A stretch of 64,000 bases of DNA from Methylobacterium sp. PvR107. GTDB lineage: Bacteria > Pseudomonadota > Alphaproteobacteria > Rhizobiales > Beijerinckiaceae. The first letter of the stretch is position 1, and each line of letters opens with the position of its first letter. A program made the position numbers and the translations under genes. Shown piece after piece: positions 1 to 20,414 of the stretch. Under the pieces are notes generated by a model, which saw nothing but the letters and a program-made list of their open reading frames with translations, was not told the DNA's origin and ran no database searches. The stretch spans positions 1,426,001 to 1,490,000 of the forward strand of contig NZ_JAFIBW010000001.1 of assembly GCF_017833295.1 (NCBI RefSeq), read 5' to 3'.

Positions 1-581
1 CCGGACTGGACCAGCTGGATCGTGCGGCTGTGGTCCCCGGAGAAGCCGACCCGGGCGAACACCTCGTCGGGCGTCTTGCCCGGGAACGCCTCGCGGATGA
101 AGTATTCCGGCATCAGGCGGCCCGAGGTTGAGGCGCGCGAGCCGAACGTGAATGTCTTGCCGGCGATCGCCTTAGGGAAGTTGGCCGATTTCGTCAGGCC
201 GGTCTTCGTGTTGGCGATGAGGTAGGTCTTGAAGGCGGCGTCCTCCGCGCCTTGCGCGATCGCTTGCGCGCCGGGGGCGGCCTTGCGCGCCTGCACTCCG
301 GTGAAGCCGCCGAACCAGGCGAGCTGGACCTGGCCGTTGGTGAAGGCCGTCACCGCCGCCGGGTAGTTTTTCACCGGGATGTATTTGACGGGCACGCCCA
401 GCTTGCCTTCGAGATAGGTCGCCACCTTGCCGAAGCGCTCCACGAGGCGACTCTCGTCCTGGTCGGGAATGCCGGTGAAGACGAAGGTCGGCTTGGCGCT
501 CTCCTGCGCGCCCGCAGGTCCGGACGCGACAAGGCATCCCAGTCCCATCAGCAGCGCCCCGCTCAAAGTCCGTCTCAGCAT
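1..581 (-). CDS. PhnD-like periplasmic binding protein of an ABC transporter, probably selenium or phosphorus oxyanion (partial)
   Basis: Substrate-binding protein of the phosphate/phosphite/phosphonate (PhnD-like) family. The 3' end lies beyond the left edge, so only the first 193 residues are seen. Residues 1-25 form a signal peptide (MLRRTLSGALL, then a hydrophobic run ending near GPAGAQ). The mature part has the family hallmarks FTGIPDQDE, ATYLEGKLGVPVKY and the ligand-loop stretch QLAWFGGFTG, followed by FGSRASTSGRLMPEYF. Relatives beside selenium genes are often annotated as putative selenate-binding proteins. It is divergent from a selenium operon, so uptake of a selenium oxyanion is a reasonable guess, but phosphonate or phosphite binding cannot be excluded. 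The permease and ATPase genes should lie outside the window. The start is the ATG before MLRRT. Confidence 0.8.
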   Translation of the reverse strand, partial: MLRRTLSGALLMGLGCLVASGPAGAQESAKPTFVFTGIPDQDESRLVERFGKVATYLEGKLGVPVKYIPVKNYPAAVTAFTNGQVQLAWFGGFTGVQARKAAPGAQAIAQGAEDAAFKTYLIANTKTGLTKSANFPKAIAGKTFTFGSRASTSGRLMPEYFIREAFPGKTPDEVFARVGFSGDHSRTIQLVQS

Positions 582-921
582 CGTCGCCCCCAGCACCCTG
601 TCCAGATGCTCTAACACCCCCAAGCGGAGGCGGATGTCCAATCAATTGACGACTGTCGCCGCCGCGGGGTCACTGCGCCGGGCGAACCCCTGTTGACGAC
701 GGGAGTTCGCGGGCCGGTGCCGGGCGGTTACGAGCCGCGCCGCTCGCGCCGGGCTGCCGAGGCGCCAGAAGGTCCCAGTATTGGATCGCGCCGGAGACGC
801 GAGGGGCCGCCGAAGATGTGATGTTACCGCGACGCGTCTCCGTGCGAAGGAGGAGAAAACGCCGCGCGCCACGATGCCGATTATCGTGAGACGTCACGCC
901 GGATCGCGTCAGAGGATTTCC
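582..921. other. Divergent intergenic region of the selenium locus
   Basis: A 340-base gap between the binding-protein gene (leftward) and the radical SAM gene (rightward). It must hold the promoters of both units. I see no convincing -35/-10 pair, no known riboswitch fold and no gene. An AGAGGA ribosome binding site lies at its right end, five bases before the radical SAM ATG. Two in-frame upstream start codons for the radical SAM gene (781 and 871) lack such a site. Confidence 0.4.
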
Positions 922-1998
922 ATGGCTTCGACGTCGCAGACGTCCGCGCTTCCGATGCCGGCCCCCGCCGACCCGGCCCGGTCCTTCTCGCTCGGGATTG
1001 GGCTGACCAACGAGTGCAACCTCGCCTGCAGCTTCTGCTACCGCGATCCGGACCGGCTGGACCGGCTCGGGCCCGATCAGGTTCGGGCCGTCCTCGACAG
1101 CCTGCCGGTGCGCTCGGTCAATCTGGGCACCGGCGAAAACGGGATGCATCCGCAATTCCCGCGGCTCCTCGACATGCTGCGGGCCGAGCCGATCAAGCTC
1201 ACGATCACGTCGAACGGGCATTCGATTGCGGTGATCGACGATGTGGCGGTGCAGGCCTTCGCCGACGTGGAATTCTCCATCGACTATCCGACCCGGGACG
1301 AGCAGGACGCGCAGCGCGGCGCCGGCAATTGGGACTTGGTGATGGCGCAGGCCGCCCGCTGCAAGGCCCTCGGCGTCGGCGTCACCTTCATCGCGGTGAT
1401 GATGCGGACCAACTTCGACCGGCTGCACGAGATCGCTGCCATCGCCCAAAGCTTTGAGGCGCCCCTGCGCATCAACGTCTACCAAGCGGTGCGCACCGAC
1501 GCCTTCGCGCTCACCTACGATGAGTACTGGGGCGGGTTCGCGCGGCTCTTCGCTGAGACCGACGTGATCGCCATCGGCGAGCCCCTGGTCCGGGCCATGG
1601 CCGGCCTGCCGGCGCGCAAGGGCGGCTGCGGGGTCGGCACGGTGCGGGTGACACCCCGGGCCACGGTGCAACCCTGTGTCTACTGGAGCGGCACCGGGCA
1701 GAGCCTCGACACCCTGCGCGAAGCCGGCAGCGGGATCGTCGAGACCGCCCCCTTCGCGGCGGTCCGCGCCTTGCCGGAGCCCTGCCGGGGATGCGCGCAC
1801 GAGGCGTCCTGCCATGGCGGCTGCGCCGGGCGTCGGCGGCTGATGGATCGGCTCGATCAGGTGGATCCGTACTGTCCGATCGTGCGCGGCGAGTCCCGCC
1901 CCCTGGCGATCACCATGGCGCCGGCCCGCGACCTGCCGAAGCTCGAGAGCGCGTGCACGACCATCGTCCAGGCGCGCGTCCGGGACGTCCGTGGCTGA
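922..1998 (+). CDS. Radical SAM protein with Cys-rich (SPASM-like) C-terminus, in selenium operon
   Basis: A 358-residue radical SAM enzyme. The [4Fe-4S]-SAM motif is CNLACSFC with Cys at about 32, 36 and 39, followed by a TIM-barrel-like body (VNLGTGENGMHP, LTITSNGHS). The C-terminal third has many cysteines: GGCGVG, QPCVYW, PCRGCAHEASCHGGCAG and DPYCP. This looks like a SPASM or twitch domain holding extra Fe-S clusters. It is the first gene of a tight run; its stop overlaps the next start by 8 bases. The ATG at 922 was chosen for the AGAGGA site just upstream. SPASM proteins usually modify peptides or small enzymes, and some act on small molecules. No precursor peptide was found nearby, so a small-molecule role in the selenium pathway is an inference. 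The true substrate is unknown. Confidence 0.85.
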   Translation: MASTSQTSALPMPAPADPARSFSLGIGLTNECNLACSFCYRDPDRLDRLGPDQVRAVLDSLPVRSVNLGTGENGMHPQFPRLLDMLRAEPIKLTITSNGHSIAVIDDVAVQAFADVEFSIDYPTRDEQDAQRGAGNWDLVMAQAARCKALGVGVTFIAVMMRTNFDRLHEIAAIAQSFEAPLRINVYQAVRTDAFALTYDEYWGGFARLFAETDVIAIGEPLVRAMAGLPARKGGCGVGTVRVTPRATVQPCVYWSGTGQSLDTLREAGSGIVETAPFAAVRALPEPCRGCAHEASCHGGCAGRRRLMDRLDQVDPYCPIVRGESRPLAITMAPARDLPKLESACTTIVQARVRDVRG

Positions 1999-2794
1999 CG
2001 AACCCGAGGCCATCGCCGGGCTGGGCCAAGTCGCGGACGCCTTCGCGGTGGTCCTGTGCGACGTGTTCGGCGTCCTCCACGACGCGACGCGTGTGCTTCC
2101 AGCCGCTACCGGCGCGCTGGGCGCCTTCCGGGCGGCCGGCGGCACGGTGGTACTCGTCTCCAACACCGCCGAACCTGGACGCCGCCTCGCGGACGCGCTC
2201 CGGGACCGCGGCATCCCTGCCGCATGGGACGACCTCGTCACCGCGGCCGACGTCGCCCGCCTCCTCTTGCGTGATGGGGCGTCGGCGCGAGCGCATCATA
2301 TCGGGCCGGCGCGCGACCGCGTCCTGTTCGCGGGCCTGCCGATCGCGCTGACCGGTGTCGAGGACGCCAATCTGACCGTTTGCACGGGTTATCCGGACGG
2401 CGATGACGACCTCGATGCGATCCTGGCCACCGCGCACCGGCGCGGCCACCGCCTGCTCTGCACCAATCCGGACACGTGCCTGACGGTGGGCACGACGCGC
2501 CTGCGCTTCGCCGGCCTCGTGGCTGAGCGCTACCGGACGCTCGGCGGCCGCGTGGTCGAGACCGGGAAGCCCGGTGCGCTGATCTATCGCCACGCCCTGA
2601 AGCGCGCCGGTCGGGCACGCGGCCGGCCGGTCGCCCCCGAGCGGGTCCTCGGGATTGGCGACACCGCGGCGCTCGACGTTCTGGGGGCGCTCAGGGCCGG
2701 CTTCAGCGCCCTTCAGGTCGGCGGCGCGCCACCGCTCCCGCTTCCGGCATTCTCCCCTGGCCGCCTGTACCGGATGCCCGCCCTTGTCTGGTAG
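1991..2794 (+). CDS. HAD superfamily hydrolase (class IIA, TIGR01459/NagD-like)
   Basis: A 267-residue HAD-type phosphatase-like protein. Motif I is CDVFGVLHD near residues 23-31: the first Asp is present but the usual second Asp of DxD is replaced by Phe, as in the TIGR01459 branch, with Asp31 further on. Motif II is [11 protein letters not shown], the motif III lysine is in [10 protein letters not shown], and motif IV is [13 protein letters not shown]. The cap lies between motifs II and III, as in the NagD type. The GTG start overlaps the radical SAM stop by 8 bases, implying translational coupling. The context suggests it dephosphorylates an intermediate or clears a damaged phosphoester in selenium metabolism; the substrate is not known. 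Confidence 0.8.
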
Positions 2795-2843
2795 GACCGG
2801 GCCGAGACCTCTTTCGTTGCCCTCGATGCCCCAGGATTCGGCC

Positions 2844-3893
2844 ATGGATACCCCCCCGGTTCGCCTCACCAGCCTCGCCCATGGCGGAGGCTGCGGCTGC
2901 AAGCTCGACCCCGAGGTGCTGCGCACGCTGCTGGCCGACCAACCGGTGGCCGGCCCGTTCGAGCGCCTGCTCGTGGGCAACGAGACCGCCGACGACGCCG
3001 CGGTCTGGGCGCTGGATGACGGGACCTGCCTCATCGCCACCACGGACTTCTTCACGCCGATGGTGGACGACCCCCACGATTTCGGCCGGATCGCCGCGAC
3101 CAACGCGATCTCCGACGTCTACGCCATGGGCGGCAAGCCGATCCTAGCGCTCGCCATCCTGGGCATGCCGGTGGGCAAGATCGCGCCCGAGATCGTCGCC
3201 CGGATCCTGAAGGGCGGGGCCGCCACCTGCGCCGAGGCGGGCATCCCCATCGCGGGCGGCCACTCGATCGACACGCCGGAGCCGATCTACGGCCTCGCCG
3301 TGATCGGCCTGTGCGACCGTGCCCGCATCCGGCGCAACGCCGACGCGCGGGCCGGCGACGTCGCCATCCTGACAAAGCCCCTCGGCGTCGGCATCTACTC
3401 CGCCGCGATCAAGCGCGAGGCCCTCGACGCCGCGGGCTATGCCGATTTCGTCGCCACCACGACGCGCCTCAACAGGGTCGGGGCGGATCTAGCGGGCGAT
3501 GCGGAGGTCCATGCCATCACCGACATCACCGGCTTCGGCCTCCTCGGGCACGGCCTGGAACTTGCTCGCGGCGCCGGCTTGACCTTCGTCATCGCGGGCG
3601 GCGCGATCCCGCTCCTGCCCCGGGCCGAGGCGCTCGCGCGGGAGGGCTTCGTGACCGGAGCCTCGCACCGCAACTGGGCCAGCTTCGGCAGCCAGGTGAC
3701 CCTGCCCGAGGGCCTGCCCGACTGGCGGCGCCACCTCCTCACCGATCCCCAGACCTCCGGCGGCTTGCTCGTGACCTGCACGCCGGCGCGGGCCGAGGCG
3801 ATCCTGACCCAGGTCCGGGCCGCGGGCTTCGCGGAGGCTGCCGTCGTCGGGCGGTTCGAGGCCGGCGATCCCGGCATCCGGGTCGAGGCCTGA
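2844..3893 (+). CDS. senC: Selenide, water dikinase (selenophosphate synthetase; SenC/SelD)
   Basis: Makes selenophosphate from selenide and ATP; 349 residues, the normal SelD length. The N-terminal glycine-rich catalytic loop HGGGCGCK places Cys17 and Lys20 exactly as in E. coli SelD. Further family blocks are [57 protein letters not shown] and [10 protein letters not shown]. Cysteine rather than selenocysteine is used. The ATG at 2844 is preceded by AGGA at a good distance; an in-frame ATG at 2826 has no such site. With EgtB-like and GT-B genes beside it and no selA, selB or selU, it probably feeds small-molecule selenium synthesis (the senC role in selenoneine clusters). It could also serve selenoprotein or tRNA selenation pathways encoded elsewhere. 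Confidence 0.93.
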
Positions 3894-3904
3894 CGGGCGG
3901 CCCC

Positions 3905-4708
3905 GTGCCGCCGCGCGACCCGCCGGTCGCCCCGATCCTGCGCGGCAAGGCGTACGGGGCGGCTTCCGAATTCACACCCGATAGCCTGCTTCGCGAGGCG
4001 CGCCGGCAGCGCGGCCTCGGCGCCGGCCGGGTGCCCGCGCTGTGCGTGCTGGACCCCGACGGCGACATCGTCCGCCACCTGCGCGCGACCGGCGTGGCGC
4101 GGCGCGATCCGGACTGGGCGTGCTATCACACCGACCTCTTCCGCTTCGAACGCGACGGGCGGGAGTTCGGGATCGTCGGCTGCGCGGTCGGCGCCCCCTT
4201 CGCTGTGCTGGTAGCCGAGCAGATGTTCGCCTCGGGCTGCGAACTGCTGATCAGCATCACCTCCTCGGGCCAGATCACGCCCTCGCGAGCGCCGCCCTAC
4301 TTCATCCTGATCGAGGCGGCGCTCCGCGACGAGGGCACGAGCTACCATTACCTGGCGCCGGCCGACTTCGCACAGGCTCCGGCCGACCTCGTCGCGGCCA
4401 TCGCCCCCGCCCTGTCGGGGATCGGGGAACCGGTGGAGCGAGGCATGACGTGGACGACCGATGCGCCTTACCGCGAGACCCGACAGGCCATCGAGGCGGC
4501 GTCCGCGCGGGGCATCCTTGCGGTCGAGATGGAGGCGGCGGCGCTCTACGCCTTCGCGCAGGCTCGCGGCAAGGCGGTGCTGTGTTTCGCCCACGTCACC
4601 AACCAGATGGGCCAGGCCGGCGATTTCGAGAAGGGCGAAGCCGACGGCGCGACGGCGGCGCTCCGCCTCGTCGCGGCCGCCGCGGCGGCCCAATTCGCGC
4701 GGCGCTAA
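3905..4708 (+). CDS. Nucleoside phosphorylase-like protein (PNP/UDP family)
   Basis: A 267-residue protein of the purine/uridine phosphorylase superfamily. Seen are the phosphate-loop region FGIVGCAVGAPFAVL, the ribose/base region ISITSSGQI, a TTDAPYRET block and the hallmark GILAVEMEAAALYAFA. The MEAA Glu contacts the ribose hydroxyl in the family. The GTG start is 11 bases after the senC stop; the ribosome site is weak (GGGCGG), fitting coupled translation. It ends tail to tail with senA, overlapping it by 4 bases. A nucleoside phosphorylase is not part of the three-enzyme selenoneine pathway. It may process a nucleoside by-product such as 5'-deoxyadenosine from the radical SAM enzyme, or uridine derived from the sugar nucleotide. 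Both are guesses. Confidence 0.8.
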   Translation: MPPRDPPVAPILRGKAYGAASEFTPDSLLREARRQRGLGAGRVPALCVLDPDGDIVRHLRATGVARRDPDWACYHTDLFRFERDGREFGIVGCAVGAPFAVLVAEQMFASGCELLISITSSGQITPSRAPPYFILIEAALRDEGTSYHYLAPADFAQAPADLVAAIAPALSGIGEPVERGMTWTTDAPYRETRQAIEAASARGILAVEMEAAALYAFAQARGKAVLCFAHVTNQMGQAGDFEKGEADGATAALRLVAAAAAAQFARR

Positions 4709-6009
4709 AGAGCCGCCGTGCGGAACCCGGCGAACACGTCGCGGCGATCCGGGCCGAAGAAGTTGCGATAAGCGGCGTCGACCATGCGCGAGCGGGTCGC
4801 CCAGGCGCCGCCGCGCAGGACCTTGCGGGTCCCGAAGGCGGGCTCCGAATACTCCTTGTAGGCGTCGGGCGCGAAGCCGGGGAAGGGCAGGAACGGACTC
4901 GCCGTCCATTCCCAGACATTGCCGAGCATCTGCCGGCAGCCCCAGGCGCTGTCGCCCTCGGGGTAGGCGGCGACGTCGACGCAGCCGACATGTCCGCCAT
5001 CGAGGTTGGCGAGGGCGGGCGTGGGTGCCGCAGCCCCCCAGGGATAGGCGCGCTTGGTTTCGCCGAGCGTGCCGTCCGGCGCCGGCCCGCCGGCGGCGGC
5101 GGCTTCCCACTCCGCCTCCGTGGGCAGACGGCGGCCCGCCCAGCGGCAATAGGCGTTCGCCTCGTGCCAGTTGACGTGGACGACCGGCTGATCGGGCGCC
5201 AGCGGCTCGTCCCGGTCGAACCTCCGGACGGTCCAGTCGCCCCGCCCGTGCCGTGTCCAGTAGACCGGATGATCGGCACCTGCACCGTCGCGCCACCGCA
5301 CGCCGTCGGCGTCCCAGTAGGCGCCCTCCCGGTAGCCGCCATCCGCCACGAAGGCGGCGAACTCCGCGTTCGTCACCGCCGCGCGGGCGATGCGGAACGG
5401 CGCGACGGGCACGGGATGCGCCCATTTCTCGTTGTCGAAGACGAATCCGCCGCCGGGCTCGGATCCGAGCCGCCACGTTCCGCCGCCGACGGCGACGTCG
5501 CCCGGCCAGGGGCCGGTCCCCGTCTCCCGCGCGCAGGCCGACGCGGCGAAGGCCGGCACCGGGTAACCGAGGGTCTGGCGGGTATAGGTGAAGGCCTCGT
5601 CGTGCATGTCCTCGTGGAAGGTGACGAGCTGATAGAGTTCGGCCTCGCGCGGCGTGGGCTCGCGACCGGCGAGGCGCCCGACCAGCGCCTCGTGGACGCG
5701 AGCCATGTAGCCGAGCGTTTCGGGCAGCGGCGGCAGCGGGATCGACCAGCGCGTCGCGTGGGGCACCCGCGCGGAATCGTAGAGCGCGTCGGCTCGGTCG
5801 ATCAGGGGCCGATGACCGTCGAGTCCGCGCAGGATGAAATGTTCGTGGAACCAGGCGAGATGCCCGATTTCCCACAGGAGGGGGTTCACGATATCGCTCT
5901 GTGGCCCCATGAGGCGGTCGCGATCGAGGCCTGCCACCAGTTCGAGCGTGCGCGCCCGGGCATCCTGCAGCATCGCCACGAGATCGGCAGTCGAGACCTG
6001 TGCGCTCAT
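4705..6009 (-). CDS. senA: EgtB-like nonheme iron enzyme, selenoneine synthase (SenA)
   Basis: A 434-residue protein with an N-terminal DinB-like domain and a C-terminal formylglycine-generating (sulfatase-modifying) domain, the EgtB/SenA architecture. Iron ligands are visible as His50 in the GHLAWFHEH block and His132 and His136 in HEDMHDEAF (HxxxHxE). The FGE-like domain shows RLPTEAEWE, GNVWEWTAS and LRGGAWATR. In selenoneine synthesis SenA joins hercynine to a selenosugar with O2. Plain EgtB uses gamma-glutamylcysteine or cysteine instead. The adjacent senB and senC genes favour the selenium assignment. Hercynine would need an EgtD methyltransferase, which is not in this window. The start has AGGA at a good distance. 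Confidence 0.88.
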   Translation of the reverse strand: MSAQVSTADLVAMLQDARARTLELVAGLDRDRLMGPQSDIVNPLLWEIGHLAWFHEHFILRGLDGHRPLIDRADALYDSARVPHATRWSIPLPPLPETLGYMARVHEALVGRLAGREPTPREAELYQLVTFHEDMHDEAFTYTRQTLGYPVPAFAASACARETGTGPWPGDVAVGGGTWRLGSEPGGGFVFDNEKWAHPVPVAPFRIARAAVTNAEFAAFVADGGYREGAYWDADGVRWRDGAGADHPVYWTRHGRGDWTVRRFDRDEPLAPDQPVVHVNWHEANAYCRWAGRRLPTEAEWEAAAAGGPAPDGTLGETKRAYPWGAAAPTPALANLDGGHVGCVDVAAYPEGDSAWGCRQMLGNVWEWTASPFLPFPGFAPDAYKEYSEPAFGTRKVLRGGAWATRSRMVDAAYRNFFGPDRRDVFAGFRTAAL

Positions 6010-6036
6010 CGGACGTCCTGGAAGCCTGTCGAGACC
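6010..6036. promoter_or_regulatory. 27-base divergent gap between senA and senB
   Basis: Only 27 bases separate the two start codons of divergent genes. On the senA side AGGA sits 7 bases from the ATG. On the senB side the only candidate is a distant GGAAG. Two full promoters cannot fit here, so their -35/-10 elements must lie inside the opposing coding regions, or one gene is read from a more distant start. Confidence 0.5.
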
Positions 6037-7083
6037 ATGAAGATCAGCCTCATCACGCCGGCTGCGCGGACGTCCCGCGCCGGCAACCGGACGACGGCGA
6101 TCCGTTGGGCGCGCATTCTCGGCGATCTCGGACACCAAGTCGACGTGGCGACGGACTACGCCGAGGACGCCGACGCGGATCTGATGCTGGCCCTGCACGC
6201 TTGGCGCAGCGCCGCCGCCATCGCGCGCTTCAAGGCACTTCATCCGGACCGGCCGTTGGTGGTCGCCCTGGCGGGCACGGACATCTACCATTTTCTCTCC
6301 GCGGACCCCGAGCCGATGCTGCGCTCGCTCGACTTGGCGGACCGCCTGATCGGCCTCCACGACCTGGTCGCCGCGGCCCTTCCGCAACGCCATCGCGCCA
6401 AGGTCGACGTCGTGTTCCAGTCCGCCCTCCCGCGCCGACTGCGCTGGCCGGTCTCGGAGGAGGCTTTCGAAATCCTCGTCGTCGGGCACCTGCGCGCCGA
6501 GAAGGACCCGTTCCGCGCCGCCCGCGCCGCACGGCGGCTTCCGGCCCGGTCCCGCATCCGCATCGTCCATCTCGGGGGCGCGCACGAGGCGGTCTGGGCG
6601 GCGCGAGCCCGCGCCGAGATGGCCGACAACCCGCGCTACCTGTGGCTCGGAGACCGGCCCGGATCCCTGGTGCGGCGCTGGCTGACCCGTGGGCGCGTCA
6701 TGGTCCTCAGTTCGCACCAGGAGGGTGGCGCCAACGTGGTGTCCGAGGCCATCGTGTCCGGCCTGCCGGTGATCGCCTCCGACATTCCCGGCACCCGCGG
6801 ACTGCTGGGATCAAGCTATCCGGGCTACTTCCCGGTCGGCGACGATGCGGCGCTGGCCGCCTTGCTCCTCCGCGCCGAGGAGGAGCCGGCGTTTCTGAGC
6901 ACCTTGGCTGCGTATGGCGCGGCGCGCGCCGAACTCTTCGCACCGGCACAGGAGTGCGAATCCCTCCGGCGTGTCGTCGCGCGTTGTACTGAGGATCGCT
7001 CCGATCCAACAGCTCCGCCATCCGCGGCGAGGCTCACGAAAAATCCAGACAGACGCCGAAGCGGGGAAGGCGACGCGTCATGA
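6037..7083 (+). CDS. senB: GT-B glycosyltransferase-like selenosugar synthase (SenB)
   Basis: A 348-residue GT-B fold protein. The N-terminus MKISLITPAARTSRAGNRTT with the following RWARIL helix is typical of the SenB branch, as is the short first Rossmann half (LMLALHAWRSA, VVALAGTDIYHF). The donor half contains VVGHLRAEKDPFRAARAARR and SSHQEGGANVVSEAI followed by GLPVIASDIPGTRGLLG, the nucleotide-sugar binding block. In the selenoneine pathway SenB joins selenophosphate to a UDP-sugar to make a selenosugar for SenA. The head-to-head senA and nearby senC support this. The last 30 residues are basic and low in complexity. Without the context it would be called a family 4-like glycosyltransferase. 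Confidence 0.86.
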   Translation: MKISLITPAARTSRAGNRTTAIRWARILGDLGHQVDVATDYAEDADADLMLALHAWRSAAAIARFKALHPDRPLVVALAGTDIYHFLSADPEPMLRSLDLADRLIGLHDLVAAALPQRHRAKVDVVFQSALPRRLRWPVSEEAFEILVVGHLRAEKDPFRAARAARRLPARSRIRIVHLGGAHEAVWAARARAEMADNPRYLWLGDRPGSLVRRWLTRGRVMVLSSHQEGGANVVSEAIVSGLPVIASDIPGTRGLLGSSYPGYFPVGDDAALAALLLRAEEEPAFLSTLAAYGAARAELFAPAQECESLRRVVARCTEDRSDPTAPPSAARLTKNPDRRRSGEGDAS

Positions 7084-16224: not shown

Positions 16225-17310
16225 ATGGACCCCAGGGCTTTCCTTGTGCTGACCCCGCTAGCTCTGGCAGCATGCTCGCCGGCCGAGACCGCAGTGCCCC
16301 CGGAGCCGCCGCTGGTCCAGACCGTCGCGGTCGCTCCGGCGAAGCTTGGCATCGCGCGCTACACCGGTGTCATCCGCGCCCGTACCGAAAGCAATCTCGG
16401 CTTCCGCGTCGGCGGCAAGATCTACGAGCGCCTTGTCGATCCGGGGGACCACGTCCGGCTCGGTCAGCCCCTGATGCGCCTCGACCGGACGGACTTCACT
16501 CTCGCCCTCAACGCGGCGCGGGCCTCCGTCGAGGCGGCCCGGGCGCAGATGATCAAGGCCAAGGCTGACGATGAGCGCAGCCGCAAGCTCGTCGGGGACG
16601 GCTGGACCTCGAAGCAGACCTACGACCAGAACAAGGCCGCGGCGGATGCGGCCATCGCCCAGTTCGCCAACGCGGAGGCGCAGGCGAGCCAGGTCGCCAA
16701 CCAAGCCGGGTATTCCGAGCTCCAGGCCGATGCCGACGGCGTCGTGATGGAGGTTCCGACCGAGCCGGGCCAGGTCGTCGCCGCCGGCCAGACCGTCGTC
16801 AAGCTCGCCCGTGACGGCGCCCGCGAGGCCGAGGTGTTCCTGCCGGAGGGGAGCCGGCAACTCGCGAAGGGGGCAGCGTCGGCAACCCTTTACGCCGAGG
16901 GCGAGACGACCTACCCGGCCAAGCTCAGGGAGCTGTCCGCCACCGCCGACCCGGCCACACGGACCTACCGGGCGCGTTACATCCTGTCGGGCGGCGGCGA
17001 GACTGCGCCGCTCGGCGCCACGGTGACGCTCCGGCTCGCGCCGGCGGATGCCGGGCATGCGGCGTCGGTCGACGTGCCGCTCGGGGCCCTGTTCGACATC
17101 GGGCAGGGTTCGGCGGTCTGGAAGTTCGACGCCGACACCAAGACCGTCACCGCCCAGCCTGTCTCCGTCGCCCGCATGTCGGAGGAAGGCGCTCAGGTCG
17201 TGTCCGGCCTCAGCCCGGGCGACCGAATCGTGTCGCTCGGCGCCCACCTCCTGAAGGCCGGCCAGACAGTGCGGCAGGCTCCCTCAAGCCTGACGGGAGT
17301 CACGCGATGA
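16225..17310 (+). CDS. RND efflux pump periplasmic adaptor (membrane fusion lipoprotein)
   Basis: A 361-residue HlyD/AcrA-type adaptor. The N-terminus MDPRAFLVLTPLALAAC ends in a lipobox (LALAAC), so the protein is probably anchored to the inner membrane and periplasmic. The lipoyl/barrel halves are GFRVGGKIYERLVDPGDHVR and GVVMEVPTEPGQVVAAGQTV with an alpha-helical hairpin between them (LNAARASVEAARAQMIKAKA). AGAGGAG precedes the ATG. The stop overlaps the permease start (ATGA), so the two are coupled. No outer-membrane channel gene is present nearby; a TolC-like protein elsewhere must serve. Confidence 0.92.
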   Translation: MDPRAFLVLTPLALAACSPAETAVPPEPPLVQTVAVAPAKLGIARYTGVIRARTESNLGFRVGGKIYERLVDPGDHVRLGQPLMRLDRTDFTLALNAARASVEAARAQMIKAKADDERSRKLVGDGWTSKQTYDQNKAAADAAIAQFANAEAQASQVANQAGYSELQADADGVVMEVPTEPGQVVAAGQTVVKLARDGAREAEVFLPEGSRQLAKGAASATLYAEGETTYPAKLRELSATADPATRTYRARYILSGGGETAPLGATVTLRLAPADAGHAASVDVPLGALFDIGQGSAVWKFDADTKTVTAQPVSVARMSEEGAQVVSGLSPGDRIVSLGAHLLKAGQTVRQAPSSLTGVTR

Positions 17311-20300
17311 CCGGCTTCAACCTCTCCGCCCTGGCGGTCCGGGAGCGGGCCGTCACGCTGTTCCTCATCATCGCGGTGACCGCCGCGGGCTTCTTCGCCT
17401 TCCAGAAGCTCGGCCGCGCGGAGGACCCGGCCTTCACCGTGAAGACGATGTCGGTCTCGGCAGCGTGGCCCGGCGCGACCACCTCGGAGATCCAGCGGCA
17501 GGTCGCCGACCCGTTGGAGAAGCGGCTGCAGGAACTCGTCTACTACGACCGCGTCGAGACCACGGTCCGTCCCGGCCTCATGCTGATGAAGGTCTACTTC
17601 AAGGACAGCATGCCGCCGGCAAGGCTGCAGGAAGAGTTCTACCAGGCCCGCAAGAAGCTCTCTGACCAGGCCTCCACGCTGCCGCGCGGCGTGCTCGGGC
17701 CCTTGTTCAACGACGAGTTCTCCGACGTCTACTTCGCACTCTACGCGCTCCAGGCCCAAGGTCAGCCGCACCGGCATCTCGTGCTGCGCGCCGAAGATCT
17801 GCGCCAGCGGCTCCTGCGCGTGCCCGGCGTCGAGAAGATCAACATCCTCGGCGAGCAGGCGCAGAAGATCTTTGTCGAGATTTCTTATCAGCGCCTCGCC
17901 ACGCTCGGCATTACCGGGCAGCAGTTGCTCGCGGCGTTGGCGAACCAGAACGACGTGACGCCGGCCGGCTTCGTCGAGGCCGACGGCCCGCGCGTGTACC
18001 TCCGGCTCGACGGCGCCATCGACGGCCTCGACACGATCAGAAACCTGCCGGTGGCGGTCGGGGACCGCAGCATCAAGCTCGGCGACATCGCCGAGGTGAG
18101 GCGCGGCTACGAGGACCCGAAGGTCTTCGAGATACGCAACGACGGCGAGCCGGCCCTCATGCTCGGCCTCGTCATGAAGCCGGGCTTCAACGGCTTGGCG
18201 CTCGGCGAAGCGCTCAACGCCGAGGAGGTGGCGATCCACCACGAACTCCCCATCGGCATCACCTTCAAAAAAATTACAGACCAGGCGAAGGTCATCGACG
18301 ACGCCATCCATGAGTTCATGGTGAAGTTCTTCACCGCGCTCTCGGTGGTCATCGTGGTCAGTCTGGTCGCGCTGGGCTTCCGGGTCGGCATCGTCGTGGC
18401 GCTCGCGGTCCCGATCACGCTCGCGGCCGTGTTCGTGGTCATGATGGTCACCGGGCGCGACTTCGACCGCATCACGCTCGGTGCGCTGATCATCTCGCTC
18501 GGCCTGCTCGTAGACGACGCCATCATCGCCATCGAGATGATGGTCGTGCGCATGGAGGAGGGCTACGACCGCGTCGAGGCGGCGACCCATGCCTGGAGCG
18601 CCACCGCCGCGCCAATGCTGACCGGAACGCTCGTCACCATCGCGGGCTTCCTGCCGGTCGGCTTCGCCGCCTCCACGGCGGGCGAGTACGCCGGCAACAT
18701 CTTCTGGGTGGTCGGCTTCTCGCTGATCATCTCCTGGATCGTGGCGGTGACCTTCACGCCCTACCTGGGCGTCAAGCTCCTGCCCAACATCCAGAAGGTG
18801 GAAGGCGGCCACGAGGCGATCTACGCCACGAGGAACTACGAGCGCCTGCGCCGCGTGGTGCGAGCCTCCGTCGACCACAAGTGGCTGGCGGCCGGGATCA
18901 CGGTCGGACTGTTCGCCCTCGCCGTCGTCGGAATGGGCCAGGTCGAGAAGCAGTTCTTCCCGAACTCGGAACGCCCCGAACTGATCGTCGAGGTGACGCT
19001 GCCCACCGGCTCCGCATTCGCGACGACCGAGGCGAGCGTGAAGAAGGTCGAGGCGGCCGTCCGCGGGCTCCCCGAGGCGCGCGAGATCACGAGCTACATC
19101 GGTCAAGGCATGCCGCGCTTCGTGCTCTCGTTCGACCCCGAACTGCCTGACCCCGCCTTCGCGCAGATCGTCGTTCAGACCTCCGACGCTGCGTCCCGCG
19201 ACGCGCTCCGCATCAAGCTTCGCAAGCTCGTGAGCGACGGGTTGTTCCCCGAGGCACGGGTGCGCGTCCTGCAGATCGTGTTCGGCCCGCCGATCCGCTT
19301 CCCCGTCGCCTTCCGGGTGGTCGGACCGGACCCCGACGTCATCCGCGGCATCGCCGCGGAGGTCCGGGATGTCATGATGGCCAACCCCAACATGCGTCTC
19401 GTCCATCTCGACTGGGGCGACAAAACCCCGAGCCTGCACCTCGCCCTCGACCAGGAGCGCCTGCGCCTGATCGGCCTGACGCCGAAGGAGGCCGGCCAGC
19501 AGCTGCAGAGCTACCTCAATGGGACGCCGGCGACCCAGGTCCGCGAGAACCTGCGCTCGGTGGACGTGCTCCTGCGCAGTCCCGGCCCGGAGCGGCGCTC
19601 ACTCGGCGACATCGGCGACCTGACCCTGACCACCCATGACGGGCGCCAAGTCCCGGTCTCGCAAGTCGCGCACCTGGAGAGCCGCTACGAGGACGCGGTG
19701 CTCAAGCGCTACAACCGCGACACCTACATCCGGGTGCAGGGCGACGTGCTCGACGGGAAGCAGCCGCCGGACATCCACGCGCAAATCTTTCCCACGCTCG
19801 ACGCGATCAAGGCGAAACTGCCGACCGGCTACCGCATCGACACGGCCGGCGCGGTGGAGGAGAGCGTGAAGGCGATGAACGCTCTGGTCGGGGTCTTCCC
19901 TCTGATGCTGATCGTGACCCTGACGGTCATCATGCTGCAGGTCCGCTCGTTCACCACCATGTTCATGGTGTTCGCCACTGCGCCGCTCGGGCTCGTGGGC
20001 GCCGTCCCGACGCTGCTGATCTTCCACCAGCCCTTCGGTTTCAACGCGATCCTCGGGTTGATCGCGCTATCGGGCATCCTGATGCGCAACACCTTGATCC
20101 TGGTGGACCAGATCCACCACGACCGGGCCGCGGGCCTGTCGGACTACGAGGCTATCGTCGAGTCCACGGTGCGGCGGGCGCGTCCTGTGATCCTGACGGC
20201 TGCGGCCGCGATGCTGGCCTTCATCCCGCTGACGCATTCGGTGTTCTGGGGCGCGCTGGCCTACGTGCTGATCGGCGGCGTCGGCGTCGGGACCCTGCTG

Positions 20301-20414
20301 ACGCTGCTGTTCCTGCCAGCCCTCTACGCCCTCTGGTTCCGGGTCAGACGGGCGCCCGTCGCAACTGGCGTCGCATCCGGATCCGACACGATGCCGGTTC
20401 AGGCGGAGCGTTGA
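17307..20414 (+). CDS. RND efflux pump inner-membrane permease
   Basis: A 1035-residue AcrB/MdtC-type transporter with two repeats of six membrane segments and large periplasmic loops. The start RERAVTLFLIIAVTAAGFFA is TM1. The proton-relay pair is in LGLLVDDAIIAIEMMVVRME (two Asp in TM4), and GRDFDRITLGALIISLG precedes it. The second half has FNAILGLIALSGILMRNTLI. Full length and no breaks. It works with the adaptor to extrude substrates in a proton-driven way. Substrates are unknown; a TetR gene downstream is the likely regulator. Confidence 0.93.
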   Translation: MTGFNLSALAVRERAVTLFLIIAVTAAGFFAFQKLGRAEDPAFTVKTMSVSAAWPGATTSEIQRQVADPLEKRLQELVYYDRVETTVRPGLMLMKVYFKDSMPPARLQEEFYQARKKLSDQASTLPRGVLGPLFNDEFSDVYFALYALQAQGQPHRHLVLRAEDLRQRLLRVPGVEKINILGEQAQKIFVEISYQRLATLGITGQQLLAALANQNDVTPAGFVEADGPRVYLRLDGAIDGLDTIRNLPVAVGDRSIKLGDIAEVRRGYEDPKVFEIRNDGEPALMLGLVMKPGFNGLALGEALNAEEVAIHHELPIGITFKKITDQAKVIDDAIHEFMVKFFTALSVVIVVSLVALGFRVGIVVALAVPITLAAVFVVMMVTGRDFDRITLGALIISLGLLVDDAIIAIEMMVVRMEEGYDRVEAATHAWSATAAPMLTGTLVTIAGFLPVGFAASTAGEYAGNIFWVVGFSLIISWIVAVTFTPYLGVKLLPNIQKVEGGHEAIYATRNYERLRRVVRASVDHKWLAAGITVGLFALAVVGMGQVEKQFFPNSERPELIVEVTLPTGSAFATTEASVKKVEAAVRGLPEAREITSYIGQGMPRFVLSFDPELPDPAFAQIVVQTSDAASRDALRIKLRKLVSDGLFPEARVRVLQIVFGPPIRFPVAFRVVGPDPDVIRGIAAEVRDVMMANPNMRLVHLDWGDKTPSLHLALDQERLRLIGLTPKEAGQQLQSYLNGTPATQVRENLRSVDVLLRSPGPERRSLGDIGDLTLTTHDGRQVPVSQVAHLESRYEDAVLKRYNRDTYIRVQGDVLDGKQPPDIHAQIFPTLDAIKAKLPTGYRIDTAGAVEESVKAMNALVGVFPLMLIVTLTVIMLQVRSFTTMFMVFATAPLGLVGAVPTLLIFHQPFGFNAILGLIALSGILMRNTLILVDQIHHDRAAGLSDYEAIVESTVRRARPVILTAAAAMLAFIPLTHSVFWGALAYVLIGGVGVGTLLTLLFLPALYALWFRVRRAPVATGVASGSDTMPVQAER

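Follow-up and report, generated by a model that had tools for sequence, protein, structure and literature searches.

The first 7 kb of the analysed stretch of Methylobacterium sp. PvR107 DNA (64,000 nucleotides, hereafter the window) appear to belong to a locus of two selenium modules that have one SelD in common. The first is a sen module, which looks ordinary. The second would be a separate and wider-spread cassette with a core radical SAM/SPASM enzyme (rSAM), an ABC importer of the selenium-oxyanion type and SelD, to which a methyltransferase and/or a nucleoside-phosphorylase-like (PNP-like) protein is often added. It also includes an operon for a TIGR04282 nucleotide-sugar-type enzyme, a GT-C of the class that uses polyprenyl-phosphate sugars, a further radical SAM protein (the second of the locus) and a GT2 of the polyprenyl-phosphate-sugar-synthase class, together with a DoxX-like membrane protein. 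The cassette would represent a trait that depends on SelD and has not been described before, probably the placing of a seleno-sugar on an envelope glycan. This explanation, taken as a whole, is given an even chance of being correct.

Organization of the locus

In the host genome, the locus covers about 14 kb, from 7.1 kb ahead of the window (position -7115) to position 7083. The genes ahead of the window encode, in this order, the TIGR04282, GT-C, second radical SAM, GT2 and DoxX-like proteins and a TIGR04553 'selenate' ABC transporter, after which come rSAM, HAD, SelD and PNP-like genes and then senA/senB. The first gene in the window (3..581, minus strand) encodes a PhnD-type ABC transporter substrate-binding protein that matches the "putative selenate ABC transporter" profile TIGR04553. 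The window cuts off the 3' end of the gene. The fragment inside it scores 221.8 bits; the complete protein (L096:14694-15581) reaches 346.6 bits against a cut-off of 250; the ATPase, permease and DoxX-like genes lie upstream. A gap of 340 bases (582..921) separates the divergent transporter and rSAM operons and is presumed to be their common promoter region.

The rSAM gene (922..1998, plus strand; PF04055 55.1 bits, gathering score 29.5) is followed by genes for a HAD-IIA hydrolase (1991..2794, plus; TIGR01459 109.9 bits, cut-off 103.75), a SelD/SenC selenophosphate synthetase (2844..3893, plus; TIGR00476 412.3 bits, cut-off 125), the PNP-like protein of nucleoside-phosphorylase fold (3905..4708, plus; PF01048 99.9 bits, gathering score 25.1), a SenA-type EgtB-like selenoxide synthase (4705..6009, minus; NF041186 513 bits, cut-off 420) and a SenB selenosugar synthase (6037..7083, plus; TIGR04348 428.8 bits, cut-off 300). 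From rSAM to SenB, the successive gaps are -8, 49, 11, -4 and 27 bases, of which -4 is the convergent overlap of the PNP-like gene and senA. All the genes named in the original prediction are present, and each matches its stated family above the profile cut-off. The predicted extent stood for the genes from 922 to 7083, but not for a start at 922, as the gene set runs on to -7115 with the TIGR04553 transporter. Similarly, the prediction saw no selA, which holds for the window but not for the genome, where one is found at G000:C1:4363579-4364922.

The SelD translation, for which an alternative start at 2826 is possible, carries a GGGCGCK motif and is the only SelD match of the host genome (E <= 1e-40). 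The NCBIfam model for SelD-like fusions, TIGR04369, is named "fusion_not_SelD", and this naming counts against our preferred explanation; the one such fusion protein that was scanned fell below the TIGR04369 cut-off (445.7 versus 700) and above that of SelD (289.7 versus 125).

The selenoneine genes

From hercynine, senA-senB together with SelD would make selenoneine. EgtD is encoded elsewhere in the genome (G000:C1:882520-883413; TIGR03438 403.9 bits, cut-off 290.9). SenB matched the PDB SenB 8jjq (E 3.1e-57), and a pattern search, in which residue numbering was not aligned, found the motifs GHLRAEKDP and EGGANV. The latter replaces the published EGGAHV, as it does in the remaining SenB loci that matched the pattern. 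In the available text of PMC10891094, the selenoneine cluster of Variovorax paradoxus consists of three genes, SenA/SenB/SenC. The present locus is alike in its SenA, SenB and SelD homologues, all above curated cut-offs, in its SenB motifs and in the EgtD of its genome, but differs in that SelD shares its operon with the rSAM, HAD and PNP-like genes and adjoins a second module.

The product would be ovoselenol or a relative, and not selenoneine, if the EgtB-like protein were OvsA-like. OvsA 8ux5 is indeed its top PDB match (309 bits), followed by EgtB 4x8b (273.6) and SenA 8ryz (243.4). Model NF041186 is unable to separate SenA from OvsA, because OvsA itself passes (435.1 versus 420), and a tree that included 18 of the 31 SenA-matching loci had long branches and gave no resolution. 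Identity over aligned columns, however, is 45% to SenA, 43% to EgtB and 41% to OvsA, and a segment that the Variovorax-type SenA chain does not have breaks its alignment in two. The presence of EgtD in the host genome also counts against ovoselenol, which we consider quite improbable.

The core radical SAM enzyme

The rSAM protein has an N-terminal CxxxCxxC motif (C32, C36, C39) and matches the SPASM model TIGR04085 (27.8 bits, cut-off 27). Seven C-terminal cysteines (C236-x15-C252, C288-x2-C291-x5-C297-x3-C301 and C318) have a spacing that we take to be like that of a full SPASM domain. Searching PDB sequences with the rSAM profile gave generic radical SAM matches only. ArsS (TIGR04167 28.9 bits, cut-off 300) and MftC (78.1 bits, cut-off 265) were rejected as identities, both scores being far below the cut-offs. 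No plasmid-borne relative was matched in the plasmid collection (E limit 1e-40).

A radical SAM/SPASM enzyme might be the maturase of a ribosomal peptide or protein, possibly a seleno-peptide. When 3200 ORFs with lengths of 25-110 residues around rSAM (-6 to +7 kb) were compared all against all, no conserved small ORF emerged in the loci examined. No family occurred in more than 5 loci, and the top families resembled antisense or low-complexity matches. This bore out the predicted lack of a precursor peptide. The predicted structure has no additional N-terminal domain; its first strand begins at residue 22, and residues 1-16 are of low confidence, so that it carries little weight for or against an RRE domain, which enzymes of the anSME type lack as well. 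A maturase function appears very unlikely.

Distribution of the cassette and its separability from sen

Loci of the rSAM family number 77, and most of them lie in Alphaproteobacteria and Acidobacteriota. Scanning with the peptide patterns KLESACTT and [IVL]KLT[IV]TSNG picked out 83 relatives, of which the best 80 were used; diverged relatives are missed in this way. Neighbour genes were counted by tblastn with queries that did not include the GT2 of the window strain, and in the class-sample searches no more than 7 first-look candidates were scored in any one genome.

Of the 12 Methylobacteriaceae loci, 9 have the HAD gene, which none of the 65 others has. It was therefore rejected as a core part of the cassette and is taken as accessory. 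The PNP-like gene recurs in 20 of the 77 loci, both with and without sen genes, and is a recurrent but optional member. The rSAM, HAD and PNP genes, which the original prediction grouped as three extra genes, are not one unit: rSAM is the core, and HAD accompanies it in only 9 of 77 loci. The PNP-like proteins form a conserved subfamily in which Ser, Asn or Gly replaces the Arg of the Thermus thermophilus phosphorylase, and Asn stands at the position where adenosine-type enzymes have Asp. Although the PDB matches include 5'-methylthioadenosine phosphorylase (1jds, E 2.5e-9), these replacements would argue against plain phosphorolysis of a substrate that resembles methylthioadenosine.

The extra enzymes had been suggested to act in the selenoneine pathway, either modifying selenoneine or recycling its selenosugar. 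In favour of this are the tight operon with SelD, the convergent overlap with senA, and the enrichment of SenB in rSAM genomes (5/22 versus 9/288, p 0.0015). In addition, the rSAM tree, computed without L082, L092 and L094, has three distinct branches in which sen genes adjoin rSAM (Methylobacterium, L032/L081 and L054/L065; 4 label changes). However, SenB had no match in 28 of 44 rSAM genomes, and rSAM none in 9 of the 10 class-sample genomes that have SenB. Nine short sen stretches from rSAM-free SenB genomes contained SenB (9), SenA (7) and SelD (6) and no other tested gene, and Methylobacterium sp. J-030 keeps rSAM-HAD-SelD-PNP with no SenB match in its genome. The rSAM module is thus separable from sen, and a role of the extra enzymes in the selenoneine pathway is improbable. 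The prediction was right that the three-step pathway does not account for the rSAM neighbourhood and, given the three juxtapositions with sen, that rSAM belongs with selenium genes. The tie of the extra genes to senAB, which was to be checked, largely fails and is replaced by a tie to SelD.

Association with SelD

SelD was found in 20 of the 22 other proteobacterial rSAM genomes, against 56 of 288; two rSAM genomes (G295 and G297) gave no SelD match. Matches to SelA, MnmH, YqeB and SenB were lacking in 14 of these 22 genomes, making their SelD an orphan as far as searched, and in 12 of the 14 the genome's one SelD match lies inside the cassette. EgtD had no match in 8 of the 14, which should therefore be without hercynine, a further point against the selenoneine pathway. 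Such absences may be gaps, because most of these genomes are bins from metagenomes for which no completeness is stated. For Alphaproteobacteria, the evidence for a selenium link of the cassette is good.

In Acidobacteriota, with the exception of two loci tied to sen, this link is weak. SelD or the transporter stands at the locus in 0 of 43 cases. SelD was present in 115 of 151 sampled genomes, including 5/5 rSAM-positive ones, and in 28/28 rSAM genomes versus 110/146 (p 0.0015, relatedness not controlled); little weight is given to this p value because SelD is widespread there and the genomes are related. The acidobacterial loci would fit an ordinary selenium-free envelope-glycan pathway, with SelD and the transporter lying nearby in Alphaproteobacteria for some other, unseen reason. 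GT2 and GT-C are, moreover, general enzyme classes that are common in selenium-free glycan loci. The proteobacterial SelD counts, the position of the single SelD within the cassette in orphan genomes and the three sen juxtapositions are contrary to such a pathway, which we hold to be rather unlikely.

Surveys of 2015 and 2016 noted bacteria with SelD and no known use for it, and raised the possibility of an unknown selenium trait (PMC5322559, PMC5029168). According to the available portions of these papers, orphan-SelD genomes had no Sec, SeU or Se-cofactor genes, included Alphaproteobacteria and among them Methylobacterium nodulans, and in 2016 yielded an ABC transporter ATPase among the named candidates; the available main text of both papers never mentions 'radical SAM'. 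The 14 genomes above resemble these cases. Unlike them, the genome of the window has SelA and SenB and, because SelA is present, is not itself an orphan case.

Glycosyl genes and proposed function

The GT-C class was settled by a fold search, which matched ALG3, GPI mannosyltransferase I, ArnT and PimE; with the GT-C profile, only GPI mannosyltransferase 1 came under E 0.01 in the PDB (0.0042 and 0.0059). Arsenosugar biosynthesis (ArsM/ArsS) uses a radical SAM enzyme, a methyltransferase and a TIGR04282-type protein (the name is that given by NCBIfam). The cassette has these three types of gene as well, but its rSAM is not ArsS and the element would be another one. In mycobacteria, methylthioxylose capping of lipoarabinomannan has 5'-methylthioadenosine as initial donor, a decaprenyl-phosphate-linked donor and an extracytoplasmic GT-C (PMC11127046, available text). 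By this description, the GT2, GT-C and nucleoside-phosphorylase-fold proteins of the cassette may be comparable, whereas radical SAM and SelD are not mentioned in that text and the PNP-like protein here lacks the phosphorylase Arg. The GT2 polyprenyl-phosphate-sugar-synthase and GT-C classes also recall the three-component extracytoplasmic glycosylation described there, from which the cassette differs by its tie to SelD and radical SAM genes.

From these features we infer a pathway with selenium in its product and the envelope as its destination. The importer would bring in selenium, which SelD would convert to selenophosphate. The core radical SAM enzyme would then insert selenium into a sugar or nucleoside, or rearrange that sugar or nucleoside, and the PNP-like and HAD enzymes, where present, may trim it. 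The TIGR04282 enzyme would activate the sugar, GT2 would load it on polyprenyl phosphate, and GT-C would pass it to an extracytoplasmic glycan. More specifically, and only tentatively, SelD could here serve one more use of selenium, distinct from Sec, SeU, Se-cofactor, selenoneine and ovoselenol. The radical SAM enzyme would make a selenium-bearing sugar, perhaps through a 5'-seleno-nucleoside that then loses its base, and polyprenyl-phosphate enzymes would use this sugar to cap an envelope glycan.

Such an rSAM-selenium cluster is seemingly undescribed in the open-licence PMC literature, in the text available from it, which is weak evidence of absence. The cassette supplies candidate genes for the orphan-SelD trait supposed by the 2015 and 2016 surveys, and testing is feasible, as plant- and soil-associated species are available as isolates. 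Selenium in an envelope sugar would, if true, give the element a biological location that is, to our knowledge, new. A selenium-sugar cap would then be the selenium counterpart of the mycobacterial methylthioxylose caps, and would account for many orphan SelD genes.

Genes of the locus

An extended selenoneine cluster had originally been predicted at 922-7083 of the window, and the genes named there were all present, each scoring against its named family. They encode a radical SAM/SPASM enzyme (rSAM, 922-1998, plus strand), a HAD-IIA protein (1991-2794, plus), SelD (2844-3893, plus), a PNP-like protein (3905-4708, plus), SenA (4705-6009, minus) and SenB (6037-7083, plus), with intergenic spacings of -8, 49, 11, -4 and 27 bases from rSAM through SenB. 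In rSAM, three cluster cysteines near the N terminus and seven cysteines towards the C terminus are all invariant in a 37-sequence alignment, throughout which identity to the window protein is at least 58%; the latter seven have the spacing of a full SPASM domain. Ten further window ORFs that were sampled appear to be ordinary chromosomal genes (Pfam match for nine), and positions 16225-20414 carry an ordinary RND-type efflux pair, an HlyD-type protein and an AcrB-type transporter.

The first minus-strand gene is a fragment cut by the window edge. In the host genome (L096, one contig of 6.36 Mb) its full-length product scores 346.6 bits against TIGR04553 (cut-off 250), the model for the binding protein of a 'putative selenate ABC transporter'. 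Upstream lie genes for the ATPase and permease of this transporter, then a DoxX-like gene and a further operon with 4-base overlaps, which encodes a TIGR04282 protein, a membrane protein of GT-C type, a second radical SAM/SPASM protein and a GT2. In window coordinates the entire locus extends from -7115 to 7083. The NCBIfam name of the TIGR04282 protein (L096:7885-8637), 'arsenosugar biosynthesis glycosyltransferase', may mislead in this setting.

Conservation of the rSAM cassette

rSAM marks a conserved cassette. A one-genome-per-species collection was scanned, and the best 80 of 83 rSAM relatives gave 77 distinct loci: 12 from Methylobacteriaceae, 22 from other Proteobacteria (one labelled just Proteobacteria, the remainder Alphaproteobacteria or its subgroups) and 43 from a third group, labelled Acidobacteriota save two bins labelled Bacillota. 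Neighbours were counted by tblastn at each locus and, because many contigs stop early, the counts are lower bounds; in the above order of groups they were at least 10/12, 14/22 and 33/43 for GT2, 9/12, 13/22 and 35/43 for GT-C, 9/12, 6/22 and 32/43 for TIGR04282, 12/12, 16/22 and 31/43 for DoxX-like, 10/12, 14/22 and 0/43 for the second rSAM, 10/12, 18/22 and 0/43 for SelD, 11/12, 18/22 and 0/43 for the transporter binding protein, 8/12, 9/22 and 3/43 for PNP-like, 9/12, 0/22 and 0/43 for HAD, 7/12, 2/22 and 2/43 for SenA, 6/12, 2/22 and 2/43 for SenB, and 5/12 and 16/22 for one methyltransferase family, with 33/43 for another. A diverged PNP-like relative (~40% identity) ends three Acidobacteriota cassettes (L042:8144, L043:5992 and L051:15329), which ties the PNP-like protein to the cassette across phyla. 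Acidobacteriota cassettes also hold, near rSAM, a conserved protein of ~240 residues (L077:4702-5436, matches in 33/43 loci) that is without a Pfam match; its start resembles a signal peptide by eye, and it is a candidate extracytoplasmic partner.

Association with SelD

In Alphaproteobacteria the cassette is tied to SelD. SelD was found in 48 of the 50 rSAM genomes examined (20/22 other Proteobacteria, 28/28 third group). Its background in the class is 57/289 genomes, and 20/22 against 56/288 gives a Fisher p of 1e-11, with relatedness and differing sampling uncontrolled. The background in Acidobacteriota is 115/151, and the association there (28/28 against 110/146, p 0.0015) carries little weight.

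Among the 22 other-proteobacterial rSAM genomes searched, SelA was found in 3, SenB in 5, and MnmH and YqeB in none. Fourteen have a single SelD match without any of these four, an orphan SelD. It lies inside the rSAM locus in 12 of them, the contigs of the other two being 8.5 and 3.0 kb, and a search of the fourteen for EgtD found none in eight. The majority are bins from metagenomes, a label that Bosea vaviloviae SD260 and Roseomonas sp. CECT 9278 do not carry. SelD also adjoins rSAM in Methylobacterium sp. WSM2598, where searches gave no SelA, MnmH or SenB match and a YqeB match below cut-off only (153.4 against 220). Methylobacterium nodulans, whose name one rSAM family member (P0032) carries, is given as an orphan-SelD organism in two surveys (PMC5322559, PMC5029168). 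One in-frame TGA occurs in SelD of many non-proteobacterial rSAM genomes (L097-L101, L104-L109, L111-L117 and L119), which would fit a selenocysteine-containing SelD.

Cassette and selenoneine genes

The cassette is separable from the selenoneine genes. SenB was present in 16 of 44 rSAM genomes examined (the host's own, 9/12 Methylobacteriaceae, 22/22 other Proteobacteria and 12/43 third group). Within the class, SenB occurred in 10/289 genomes, among which rSAM (E <= 1e-50) was found only in the window's own. Of the genes tested for, short SenB stretches from the other nine (2.4-3.9 kb) had SenA in 7/9 and SelD in 6/9, and in none was rSAM, HAD or PNP-like found. The recurrence of these three with senAB that the original prediction looked for was largely not borne out. 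One genome (L018) keeps rSAM-HAD-SelD-PNP, yet has no SenB match anywhere. The sen genes adjoin rSAM in three separate branches of the rSAM tree (Methylobacterium, L032/L081 and L054/L065), and four changes of sen label are read as three gains and one loss. For a gene in 10/289 genomes, three such juxtapositions would, in our judgement, be odd by chance.

The identity of SenB is secure. OvsA itself, in its PDB sequence, exceeds the curated cut-off of the SenA model NF041186 (435.1, cut-off 420), so that enzymes of ovoselenol synthesis may receive a SenA annotation, and neither this model nor the tree tells the two apart. Since the host genome encodes EgtD (0.88 Mb), selenoneine is the likelier product. 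A distant SenA/EgtB-like match adjoins SelD in two Acidobacteriota genomes, L115 and L112 (33% and 26% identity to the window SenA, respectively), and may represent a further EgtB-like enzyme with a link to selenium.

Proposed role of the cassette

The host has SelA (4.36 Mb) and only one SelD match, that of the window locus, which may therefore also serve selenocysteine. Because the cassette tracks with SelD, has a transporter and is repeatedly juxtaposed to sen genes, the simplest account is that it uses selenophosphate; by our judgement a selenium link is probable. The pairing of GT2 with GT-C suggests a sugar that would be carried out of the cytoplasm. Among published pathways, the closest chemical parallel that we found is the methylthioxylose cap, whose source is 5'-methylthioadenosine and whose assembly uses a decaprenyl-phosphate donor and a GT-C enzyme; the authors of that work call its existence outside lipoarabinomannan assembly unclear (PMC11127046). 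A specific nucleoside-derived envelope cap is rather unlikely here. There is an even chance that the locus combines two modules, the sen genes and the rSAM cassette, with one SelD common to both and a seleno-sugar as the end product.
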